Shown: in pieces, positions 11,101 to 13,112 of the stretch
Layout of the letters: every line of letters starts with the position of its first letter
Position numbering within the stretch: the first letter of the stretch is position 1
From: Taeniopygia guttata
Lineage: Eukaryota; Chordata; Aves; Passeriformes; Estrildidae
DNA length: 64,000 nucleotides
Direction of reading: 5' to 3'
NCBI RefSeq assembly: GCF_048771995.1
Contig: NC_133050.1
Location: 6,274,501 to 6,338,500, forward strand
Program-made: the position numbers and the translations under genes
The notes under the pieces: generated by a model
What the model saw: the letters and a program-made list of their open reading frames with translations, nothing else
Told to the model about the DNA's origin: nothing
The model's database searches: none

Positions 11101-12767
11101 TTTAACACCTTTATTTGTTTTTAGCACTTTATTTAACTCTCCAATGTTTCCTTCTTTCAGAAAAGAATTCAGCTAAAGAAGAGGAAGCTGGAGGGTTCCA
11201 GACTCCCCTCAGTGTTTCCAATCCTCAGGTAGGAACACTTTGCCCTGTCATCTTCAGCTTTTCCTGGAGCTTCTGTGCATCTCCTTCCTTCCTTTCAGTA
11301 ACCTGCTGAAGCCTTATTTCCCCCAGTCACTATTTCCAGCAACAAAATTCCTTTACATTTCACTTCCTGGTGTTTTCCAAAACTATTCTAAAGCCCTGAC
11401 AAAAGGCTGTTCCTCTGAAATAACAGCTCTCGAAACAAACTAGATGCTGTGACTGTTCCTGAGTGAAAAGAAGAATGGAATTTCCATGTTAATAAACTGC
11501 TTGATGGGAATTCCACTGCTAATTCTGACAAACCAAAGCTTGTTTAAAAGTTGGTTCAAACTTGAAAAAATTCAAGTTTATAACTCAGGTTATATTCCCT
11601 GCATGTAGAATTTGGGGGATTTATACATGGAGGATTGCTTCACACAGGTCTTTAATAAATATTTCTTAAAACAGGATAGCTGTAGGTAAGTGTGAGTGAT
11701 TTTCTGTATGAAACCAGCACATGCTTCTCTCTGCCAGGGCCCTCCAGCACACCCAGCTGTAAAAGCTGTGATTTCCATGGGTTATCACCACTTAAAAACC
11801 CCCAGATTTCAGTTTTGAGCAGTGAATGCCCCAGCACTGAGCCCTGCTGTGCTCTCCAGTGTGTGTTTTTTGCAAAATCTCTTTTCTGATTCCAGGTTGA
11901 TCATTTGACCCGTAAAACATCTGAGCTGATTGTGTCAGAGAGCAGGACAAGAAGTGGAAAGATATTCCAAAGCTGCATTGTAAGTATCAGTTTTTCTTTA
12001 TTTCTCATCATTTCTGTTCCAAACAGTGAATAAAACTCAGAGCTTGAATGCATTTGCTGTTGACAGAATGAAATTCTCATCACTTCCTAAATTCCCATTC
12101 AATTCAACACTGCCAAAAAGAATTCTGTCCCAAAGAGTTGGAAGCTGACTCAATGCAGGTAACAAAATTCCTTAGTTTTAGCTGATATTTAGCCAAATTT
12201 CCTGCAGGTTTGATCCATGAGCCAGGGGAGTTTGTGCCCAGCACTCACCCAGTGCTTCTACTTGGGAAACACTGGGCCAAAATTAAAACCTCACCTCTGT
12301 GACTCCTTCATTCCTAGAAAAAATCCCTTTTATTTGTTTAATCAGGTCAGTCTGGCAGGCAGTGCTGCTTGTGTGTACCCAAATCTTCCCACCTGACACA
12401 GCTGCACCAGAGGTTGTGTCCAAGCTGGAATTTGGGCCCCATGTCTGTGTTACTCCTTGGTATCTGCAGCTCTGGGAGGTTTTGGGGACCTTCACCATGT
12501 ATTGGGAATGCTGAGTGAGGGGCAAATCCTTCTCCAAAACTTGTGGGATGAATTTCTGCCGGGAAATAGCATCCAGATGTTCCTGCAGGGACTGGGGTGA
12601 GGCTCTGGCTGTGTCCCACCTCTGTCCTGGCCCCAGGAGCTCCTGTAATTCCACGTGTAATTCCATCTGTTGGTTTTCCTTGGCAGGTGCACCCGGCTGA
12701 GCTCTCCTCCAGCCAGGAGGTGCTGCCCAAAAGGAGGAAGCTCAGCGAGCCCAAGGAACAGTTTTAG
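2073..12767 (+). CDS. HORMAD1: HORMAD1, HORMA-domain meiotic chromosome axis protein (13 coding exons)
   Basis: Coding exons: 2073-2105, 2380-2524, 3545-3608, 5694-5730, 6085-6105, 6204-6230, 6784-6851, 7598-7749, 9001-9236, 9591-9654, 11161-11228, 11896-11979 and 12687-12767. All are flanked by AG/GT and all phases agree, giving 359 residues against 394 in human. The HORMA domain spans about residues 18-225, with words such as [44 protein letters not shown] and [16 protein letters not shown]. The tail carries KTSEL...[11 protein letters not shown] and ends [14 protein letters not shown], a basic nuclear signal plus the peptide thought to act as closure motif in mammalian HORMADs. The protein coats unsynapsed meiotic axes, supports double-strand-break formation and is removed by TRIP13. 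One small exon of the acidic tail, corresponding to part of human residues 335-370, was not found, so the true protein may be slightly longer. Identity is certain; exon edges are by eye. Confidence 0.96.
2380..2524 (+). CDS. HORMAD1: HORMAD1 coding exon 2
   Basis: It encodes the start of the HORMA domain, [15 protein letters not shown] through GTRYMD, almost identical to the human protein. It ends in phase 1 at GTAAGG. Confidence 0.95.
2745..3400 (+). repeat. Interspersed repeat in HORMAD1 intron 2
   Basis: Third plus-strand copy of the family seen at 862-1,690. It is more AT-rich and more diverged but keeps the head (GATTGGCTTTTTGCAAATAT), middle (ACACCTAAATCTTCCAAAGG) and tail in the same order. 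It sits between coding exons 2 and 3. Confidence 0.65.
3545..3608 (+). CDS. HORMAD1: HORMAD1 coding exon 3
   Basis: It encodes [20 protein letters not shown] with a split Asp and a split Trp at its ends. It is easy to miss because it follows a run of about 100 bases of G/T, ending in 14 T, that serves as its polypyrimidine tract. Its 64-nt length restores the frame between exons 2 and 4; skipping it would put a stop (TAG) in frame. Confidence 0.93.
4135..5130 (+). repeat. 1-kb pure C/T array in HORMAD1 intron 3
   Basis: Almost uninterrupted units of CCCC(C)TCTTTTTT, 10-14 bp, with essentially no A or G on the plus strand. The opposite strand is therefore pure purine (GGGGAAAAAAG). Frames through it stay open for more than 300 codons only because the repeat lacks stop trinucleotides; they are not genes. 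Confidence 0.97.
5190..5500 (+). repeat. Dispersed intronic repeat, copy A
   Basis: It shares GGATATTTGAGATATT, TGAATGTTACATGGAATTCC, AGCAGAAATAAGAGAAAATA and TTTTTAATTATTCT, in the same order, with 7,050-7,390. This is either an old segmental duplication inside HORMAD1 or two members of an unrecognised repeat family. Confidence 0.7.
5694..5730 (+). CDS. HORMAD1: HORMAD1 coding exon 4
   Basis: It encodes [12 protein letters not shown] (human [12 protein letters not shown]); the first G completes the split Trp codon. The donor is GTAAGT. Confidence 0.95.
6085..6105 (+). CDS. HORMAD1: HORMAD1 coding exon 5, 21-nt microexon
   Basis: It encodes only LRQIVLA (human LRMVVLA), between CCAG and GTGAGT. 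The frame is kept whether it is included or skipped. Confidence 0.88.
6204..6230 (+). CDS. HORMAD1: HORMAD1 coding exon 6, 27-nt microexon
   Basis: It encodes VYTQTEDPQ (human VYTNPEDPQ), phase 0 at both ends. Confidence 0.9.
6784..6851 (+). CDS. HORMAD1: HORMAD1 coding exon 7
   Basis: It encodes [19 protein letters not shown] and DFG, the conserved YxFKFKYTxxGP strand of the HORMA core, and ends in phase 2. Confidence 0.94.
7050..7390 (+). repeat. Dispersed intronic repeat, copy B
   Basis: Partner of 5,190-5,500 with the same blocks in the same order, separated by different filler. It lies in the intron before exon 8. Confidence 0.7.
7598..7749 (+). CDS. HORMAD1: HORMAD1 coding exon 8
   Basis: It encodes the [20 protein letters not shown] and [16 protein letters not shown] block of the HORMA domain. 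This is the best-conserved part of the gene and much more GC-rich than its introns. Confidence 0.97.
8150..8645 (-). repeat. Interspersed repeat, LTR-like, family shared with 55.9 kb
   Basis: On the minus strand it reads CCCTCAGACATTTTTGGA, AGCATTTGAGACCCTGGCAG, CCATGGAACGAT and CTTGCAG..AAGAACAAGAAG, then GTACAGGGGG and TGTTGGCACTCACA. The same blocks occur in the same order on the plus strand at 55,905-56,290. It is a fossil fragment with no coding remnant. Confidence 0.75.
9001..9236 (+). CDS. HORMAD1: HORMAD1 coding exon 9
   Basis: It encodes [17 protein letters not shown] and [20 protein letters not shown], the end of the HORMA fold, then a charged linker. It may be two mammalian exons fused, since it stays open over 236 nt. 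Confidence 0.94.
9591..9654 (+). CDS. HORMAD1: HORMAD1 coding exon 10
   Basis: It encodes [20 protein letters not shown], an acidic linker with little sequence conservation. It is supported by splice sites and phase (0 in, 1 out). Confidence 0.8.
10013..10165 (-). mobile_element. CR1 LINE 3' fragment, antisense
   Basis: Reverse-complemented it reads as the CR1 phrase GAGAGTTGGGGGTGTTCAGC, then ACAAGGGGGAATGGCTTTA, GATATTAGGAAAGATTTGTT and GAGGATGGGAGGCCCTGGCA. CR1 is the dominant LINE of birds. It is a truncated old copy with no ORF, in a HORMAD1 intron. The next kilobase (10,170-11,160) shows nothing recognisable. Confidence 0.85.
11161..11228 (+). CDS. HORMAD1: HORMAD1 coding exon 11
   Basis: It encodes [20 protein letters not shown] after a split Glu, with a strong CTTTCAG acceptor. 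This is disordered tail. Confidence 0.82.
11896..11979 (+). CDS. HORMAD1: HORMAD1 coding exon 12
   Basis: It encodes [20 protein letters not shown] and GKIFQSCI, matching human VEQLVNKTSEL and SESKTRSGKVFQ. The donor is GTAAGT. Confidence 0.93.
12687..12767 (+). CDS. HORMAD1: HORMAD1 terminal coding exon
   Basis: It encodes [18 protein letters not shown] and LSEPKEQF, then TAG. Human ends VPKRRKFSEPKEHI. The last 45 bases are unit 1 of the array that continues through the 3' UTR. Confidence 0.95.
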   Translation: MHPAELSSSQEVLPKRRKLSEPKEQF

Positions 12768-13112
12768 TTGCCCAAAAGGAGGAAGCTCAACAAGCCCAAG
12801 GAACAGTTTTAGTTGCCCAAAAGGAAGAAACTCAGCGAGCCCAAGGAATAGTTTTAGTTGCCCAAAAGGAGGAAGCCCAAGGAACAGTTTTAGTTGCCCA
12901 AAAGGAGGAAGCTCAACGAGCCCAAGGAACAGTTTCCCAAAAAGAGGAAGCTCAACAAGCTCAAGGAGCAGTTTTAGTTGCCCAAAAGGTGGAAGCTCAA
13001 CCAGCCCAAGGAACAGTTTTAGTTGCCCAAAAGGTGGAAGCTCCACCAGCCCAAGGAACAGTTTTTGTTGCCCAAAAGGTGGAAGCTCAACCAGCCCAAT
13101 GACCAGTTTTAG
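12723..13112 (+). repeat. 45-bp minisatellite made of the HORMAD1 C-terminal codons and stop
   Basis: Nine units start at 12723, 12768, 12813, 12858, 12894, 12933, 12978, 13023 and 13068. Lengths are 45,45,45,36,39,45,45,45,45: all multiples of three. Each restarts with (C/T)TGCCCAAAAGG, and most end CAGTTTTAG. In the gene's frame the units read [18 protein letters not shown], LPKRRKLNKPKEQF-stop, LPKRKKLSEPKE-stop-F-stop, LPKRRKPKEQF-stop, LPKRRKLNEPKEQ, FPKKRKLNKLKEQF-stop, and three LPKRWKL variants. Unit 1 is the real gene end. Confidence 0.97.

Follow-up and report, generated by a model that had tools for sequence, protein, structure and literature searches.

Tandem repeats in last exons, known as genic minisatellites or variable numbers of tandem repeats (VNTRs), include exon 11 of CEL, the zinc fingers of PRDM9 and the 3' untranslated region (3' UTR) of SLC6A3. 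The array considered here lies at the end of the meiotic gene HORMAD1, in a 64,000-nucleotide stretch of zebra finch (Taeniopygia guttata) DNA (contig NC_133050.1, positions 6,274,501 to 6,338,500; hereafter the window, in which all positions are counted). As in other last-exon VNTRs, its units measure tens of bases, lie in a terminal exon and show variants and small deletions. By contrast, the founding unit of the finch array holds the stop codon, so that the extra copies fall outside the protein, which is not lengthened. The array is best explained as a neutral minisatellite at the coding edge of HORMAD1, apparently restricted to some songbirds, with a probability of roughly 0.86. The nearest system on the protein side is HTP-3 of C. 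elegans, whose C-terminal tail is described as carrying several closure motifs, one of them numbered 4 (PMC10132761; also PMC9141381). For mammalian HORMAD1 and HORMAD2, too, the C-termini are described as closure motifs, with in vitro binding to HORMA domains (PMC6349405, PMC9141381), and in zebra finch spermatocytes HORMAD1 is reported on unsynapsed axes and on the germline-restricted chromosome (PMC11591414). The repeated finch peptide also derives from a HORMA-binding closure motif; however, the HTP-3 motifs are part of one protein, whereas the finch copies are altered and mostly separated by stops. Among the papers listed on amplified stop-codon units and on HORMAD1 in zebra finch, titles and abstract openings name no such array.

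The exon model, the deposited protein and the matches in PDB and to the HORMA domain agree on the identity of the gene, which a sequence-only reading of the window had also called HORMAD1. The 359-amino-acid model is 100% identical over its whole length to deposited T. guttata HORMAD1 isoform X1 (P0002), the C-terminus of which coincides with the first TAG. It contains a HORMA domain (Pfam PF02301, E 8.5e-68) and matches PDB entry 8j69, "HORMA domain-containing protein 1" (E 4e-145). The 18-residue finch tail aligns with SSSQESVPKRRKFSEPKE, the end of the 394-residue 8j69 chain, which is presumably human HORMAD1. On these alignments finch HORMAD1 is a meiotic HORMAD1 with a predicted C-terminal closure-motif tail. 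An AlphaFold2 model of the protein alone (alignment of 45 proteins) reached a mean predicted local distance difference test score of 41.4, and nothing was drawn from it. The gene is laid out as follows.

2073..12767, + strand: HORMAD1 coding gene, 13 exons, 359 amino acids (GT/AG intron borders, open join, identity with the deposited protein, HORMA domain)
2073-2105, 2380-2524, 3545-3608, 5694-5730, 6085-6105, 6204-6230 and 6784-6851, + strand: HORMAD1 exons 1 to 7
7598-7749, 9001-9236, 9591-9654, 11161-11228, 11896-11979 and 12687-12767, + strand: HORMAD1 exons 8 to 13
12687..12767, + strand: coding part of the last HORMAD1 exon, with the stop TAG at 12765-12767 (same tail end in 123 of 126 proteins with P[KR]RRK.SEP)

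Upstream of the SSSQ tail, the HORMAD1 proteins of an alligator and two turtles (P0112, P0140, P0141) and the 8j69 chain have about 20-25 extra residues. These are absent from finch HORMAD1 and from the bird ends inspected (compare window 11979-12687), as if the segment had been lost in birds.

The array begins within the last HORMAD1 exon and yields nine tail-like peptides in the HORMAD1 frame, a repetition far beyond chance.

12724..13119, + strand: minisatellite array, nine units of HORMAD1 tail plus stop (Tandem Repeats Finder, TRF: period 45, 9.1 copies, score 547)
12724..12768, + strand: unit 1 (45 nt), the translated copy (no residue unseen in 126 aligned tails)
12769..12813, + strand: unit 2 (45 nt), LPKRRKLNKPKEQF and stop
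12814..12858, + strand: unit 3 (45 nt), LPKRKKLSEPKE, stop, F, stop, with an extra premature TAG at 12849
12859..12894, + strand: unit 4 (36 nt), 9-nt deletion, LPKRRKPKEQF and stop
12895..12933, + strand: unit 5 (39 nt), 6-nt deletion that takes out the stop; fused to unit 6
12934..12978, + strand: unit 6 (45 nt), PKKRKLNKLKEQF and stop
12979..13023, + strand: unit 7 (45 nt), LPKRWKLNQPKEQF and stop
13024..13068, + strand: unit 8 (45 nt), LPKRWKLHQPKEQF, TAG>TTG, continuing into unit 9
13069..13113, + strand: unit 9 (45 nt), LPKRWKLNQPNDQF and stop, the last TAG at 13110-13112

A founding-type unit corresponds to the HORMAD1 stop codon and the 14 amino-acid codons before it. From unit 1 to unit 9 the lengths are 45, 45, 45, 36, 39, 45, 45, 45 and 45 nt, and no two units are identical; with its tandem units in the range of about 10-100 bp and its variants among the copies, the array belongs with the genic minisatellites. 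The CCCAAAA anchor recurs at spacings of 45, 45, 45, 36, 39, 45, 45 and 45. TRF, these spacings and the reading of the frame agree, and they bear out the earlier account of nine repeats of 45, 36 or 39 nt in one frame; its placing of the array at 12723-13112, which starts with the CTG codon of unit 1 and ends with the last TAG, was correct. It had also noted that most units keep the TAG and that units 5 and 8 do not, which holds: a terminal TAG is present in 7 of the 9 units (1, 2, 3, 4, 6, 7 and 9), and units 8 and 9 read in the gene frame as LPKRWKLHQPKEQFL followed by LPKRWKLNQPNDQF and stop. The premature TAG of unit 3 went unmentioned there. Eight in-frame TAGs, the real stop included, are thereby spread across the array, seven of them beyond the real stop. 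One of the other two frames is stop-free through the array and the other has a single stop, in the last unit. A search of its own genome, skipping simple repeats and scoring only the best candidates, matched the locus once.

Two further observations concern the sequence past the stop. Frame +1 is open through the whole array (12724-13119) and frame +2 until the last unit, so that slipping by one base at the stop would extend the protein by a long repetitive tail. The polyadenylation signals AATAAA and ATTAAA are absent from the 2.2 kb downstream of the HORMAD1 stop (window 12688-15000), where, of ten polyadenylation hexamers scanned, only AAGAAA occurs, at 12825, inside unit 3.

Conservation separates unit 1 from the other eight. 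The comparison covered 146 HORMAD1 proteins, the finch's own included and with several isoforms per species: 120 listed of 1522 matches, and 26 more that a search with the region of the canary tail added (119 matches), so that the tail had served to find these 26. All of the 127 proteins whose models reach the tail (finch included) have the pattern PKRRK.S.P. These are the 128 of 146 that hold an anchor outside the unit, less P0121, which matches the anchor elsewhere; the remaining 18 end otherwise or are cut short, one being a frameshifted crow model, and 19 of 146, P0121 included, are without the tail. P[KR]RRK.SEP occurs exactly once in each of 126 fetched proteins, 123 of which end at the usual place, the three exceptions being two canary isoforms, which continue past it, and a budgerigar isoform that is shorter by two residues. 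Compared column by column with the 126 aligned tails, unit 1 has zero new residues, and each of units 2-9 (8/8) carries at least one residue, gap or stop unseen at that column, in a set whose selecting pattern fixes several columns by itself. P, KRRK, S, P and E are also invariant in the alignment of 45 proteins, which were chosen among models with the tail. The invariant serine, which is also reported within SEP of the mouse HORMAD2 closure peptide (PMC6349405), is gone from 7 of the 8 downstream units; the exception is unit 3, which stops prematurely.

Differences among the units point the same way. The 12 variable columns fall on codon positions 1, 2 and 3 in the numbers 4, 5 and 3, and the 14 distinct changes from the majority unit comprise 12 nonsynonymous and 2 synonymous ones (synonymous expected 19%, p = 1). 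Unit-to-unit changes show no coding constraint, and judged from these alignments the array is not a set of extra motifs kept by selection. The gene model and the conservation together support translation that ends at the first TAG, with only unit 1 making protein and being kept by selection. The eight downstream copies would then be drifting in the 3' UTR.

That the repeated peptide is the HORMAD1 C-terminal tail had been recognized from the letters, and its closure-motif role is indeed published for the mammalian proteins (PMC6349405, PMC9141381). The further proposal was that read-through or alternative splicing adds downstream copies to the protein, giving tandem HORMA-binding motifs as in HTP-3. 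All copies stand in frame 0, no stop separates unit 5 from unit 6 or unit 8 from unit 9, and an isoform or deletion allele entering at unit 5 would hold two motifs, in a protein family whose mammalian C-termini are reported to bind HORMA domains (PMC6349405, PMC9141381). However, seven in-frame TAGs follow the real stop, and one read-through event would yield one extra, altered copy and then the next TAG. The serine lost from seven downstream copies, the early stop of the eighth and the missing constraint among units also speak against such an isoform. A protein database search with the read-through tail region returned no match at E 0.01 or better among 7100 candidates. Calibrated at the same database size, a two-tail protein scores E 5e-8, a fusion of units 5 and 6 scores 4e-6 and a single tail 35; the null result is informative because a two-tail or fused form would score well below E 0.01, though its reach does not extend to isoforms that 90% identity clustering or the length limits would hide. 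By a simple rule (C or T before AG, at least 60% pyrimidine in the 17 upstream bases), no splice-acceptor-like AG occurs inside the array. A scan of viral contigs with the DNA pattern gave no match.

Several motifs in one open reading frame (ORF), as in HTP-3, are not what the array offers: stops intervene, and no two-tail protein was returned. The canary repeat, apparently read in two frames, and a nearby gene amplified out of frame, both treated below, argue further against it. A multi-motif isoform is hence highly unlikely. The sequence-only reading is partly supported as a whole; its suggested function for the array is not supported, the sequence tests going against it save for a mild frame statistic.

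Tandem duplication commonly arises by slippage or exchange between short repeats, and a pair of such repeats borders the array.

12724..12729, + strand: TGCCCA, left microhomology, at the start of unit 1 (six-base identity with 13114-13119, then divergence)
13114..13119, + strand: TGCCCA, right microhomology, one base after the last TAG

The single-copy ancestor would have carried (T)GCCCA twice at a distance of 45 bp: at the first tail codons and one base beyond the stop. Through slippage during replication or through unequal exchange, the TGCCCA repeats could have given rise to a duplicate of one 45-bp unit, which would then have expanded to nine. Within the unit an inner GCCCA lies 21 bp before the next GCCCA, and this could account for a 20-21-nt unit in the canary. 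Because the founding unit carried the stop, copies can normally be gained or lost without effect on the protein.

The shared frame of all units is weak evidence for coding, because the founding 45 nt are divisible by three and only two later length changes occurred, which happen to be deletions of 9 and 6 nt. In the window, the period is divisible by three in 24 of 85 non-redundant arrays (period at least 12, the HORMAD1 array included). In 25 other window arrays (period 20-200, at least 4 copies), gaps are multiples of three in 66 of 440 cases when all gaps are counted and in 66 of 141 when only gaps of at least 3 nt are. The probability that two of two length changes are divisible by three is then about 0.02 to 0.22. 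On the question raised by the sequence-only reading, whether lengths other than multiples of three are depleted beyond chance, both changes are multiples of three, and chance would produce this at the rate given.

Related birds were judged from protein models, from which statements about their DNA are inferred. The crow (Corvus brachyrhynchos) isoform P0147 is a shifted-frame model with FSRPSLVCPEFSASIWLFCVTVGF after the tail. Against the finch flank from the end of unit 9 this peptide gives a frame-tolerant score of 51, which 0 of 2000 flank shuffles reach, and the exact place of the match adds weight to it. The crow appears to have a single tail directly followed by the flank, with no array, and FSRPS in its peptide is compatible with GCCCA just after that tail. 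The end of canary isoform P0012 is SEPKEHFSCPRSSLVAQGAV. For FSCPRSSLVAQGAV plus stop, only period 20 among periods 12-30 gives a perfect-period back-translation, which is unique, and 0 of 2000 shuffled peptides allow any period of 15-21. The solution, which contains AGTTGCCCAAGGAGCAG, a shortened finch unit, has two copies, each read in a different frame. This suggests a canary repeat unit of 20 nt, which would therefore not keep the frame; on the frame of related songbirds, the comparison that the earlier reading had called for, the canary model leans toward neutral slippage. Direct matching of canary peptides to the finch array gave no special match there. House finch isoforms P0003 and P0010, both assigned to contigs of equal length, end in KEQF and KDQF, which hints at a second tail copy in that genome.

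The canary proteins P0012 and P0106 run past the usual end into repeat-derived residues, which could be a real change of the tail or an assembly slip; the SCPRSSLVAQGAV extension may be either. A broader reading would make the HORMAD1 stop region a recurrent slippage site of songbirds that occasionally alters the closure-motif tail: a unit-5 splice or deletion allele in the finch would give two motifs, and a one-base slip in the canary would already have run the tail into the repeat. This is very unlikely.

Some of these results weigh against a neutral minisatellite restricted to some songbirds. At the all-gap rate, two of two multiples of three have p about 0.02, and no 1-nt indel occurs in the 396 bp of the array; the frame statistic leans mildly toward a coding reading, and it is the sole statistic to do so. 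Among 87 other window pieces compared with the crow peptide, the highest score is 50, next to 51 for the flank, and parts of that peptide alone find equally good matches at other places in the window. In canary isoform P0106 the seven-residue repeat occurs once more, and no perfect period fits the two stretches tested; its units must therefore differ. The canary (P0012, P0106) and house finch (P0003/P0010) models also suggest that repeat sequence can enter predicted proteins.

The presumed position of the eight downstream copies in the 3' UTR would suit a regulatory array, in which the repeated GUUUUAGUUGCCC binds a germ-cell RNA-binding protein and tunes HORMAD1 mRNA. UUUUAGU is kept in 6 of the 8 downstream copies, the UAG core in GUUUUAGUUGCCC is presumably Musashi-like, and the array RNA, less structured than its shuffles, would be accessible. 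However, the motif is short and its binding hypothetical, and the searched motif was not found among the Musashi papers listed. The crow probably has no array and the canary a different unit, and it would therefore not be a conserved element. Such regulation is very unlikely. A structured-RNA function was rejected in its turn: the array RNA folds far less stably than dinucleotide shuffles (z +4.72), and none of the 100 shuffles folds worse than it does.

Misassembly is a common hazard of tandem arrays, and this one is known from one assembly. An artefact would nevertheless have to produce nine units all different from each other, within an 8.2-Mb contig of a 41-contig assembly, and the canary models suggest a related repeat; an artefact is most improbable.

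A neutral origin at the coding edge of HORMAD1 finds a parallel in the next identified gene on the same strand, which is of the GOLPH3 type (Pfam GPP34; PDB Golgi phosphoprotein 3).

27389..28761, + strand: array at the end of the GOLPH3-type gene, 154-bp unit, nine copies, all three frames, with TAA at 27454-27456 (TRF, Pfam GPP34, PDB)

This array resembles that of HORMAD1 in consisting of nine copies of a gene end with its stop; it differs in its longer unit, which takes in more 3' flank, and in not keeping the frame. Its unit comprises the last coding bases, the stop and 3' flank, and the copies, 154-155 bp apart, stand at phases 0, 1, 2, 0, 1, 2, 1, 2 and 0 to the true stop. The same kind of process has struck two genes of the window, and the second, which ignored the frame, serves as a built-in control.

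The GOLPH3-type copies also bear on the idea that in-frame tandem TAGs were selected as backup terminators guarding the HORMAD1 C-terminus. Seven of nine units do end in a TAG in the gene frame, and the other two frames share one stop. However, the TAGs merely came with the founding unit, two of the nine units have already lost theirs, the canary model slipped out of frame, and the copied stops of the GOLPH3-type gene are spread over all frames. Fail-safe stops are barely credible.

The window as a whole is rich in repeats: tandem arrays cover 52% of it. Ten other 10-kb samples from the contig average 5.4% (median 1.6%, maximum 18%), and ten from two larger contigs average 1.2%. One of these repeats is a pyrimidine array of about 1 kb in a HORMAD1 intron (4144-5127; unit CCCTCTTTTTTTC, 76 copies). 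Pfam returned one match for ten other ORFs of the window, below the curated cut-off.

The finch HORMAD1 array illustrates that a minisatellite can start inside a coding exon and yet spare the protein, since the copied unit brings its own stop; a second gene of the same repeat-rich stretch underwent this without regard to frame. It is also a warning that an in-frame array is not proof of function when the length of the founding unit largely explains the frame. The canary tail, if real, would offer a natural experiment on the importance of the end of the HORMAD1 closure-motif tail.

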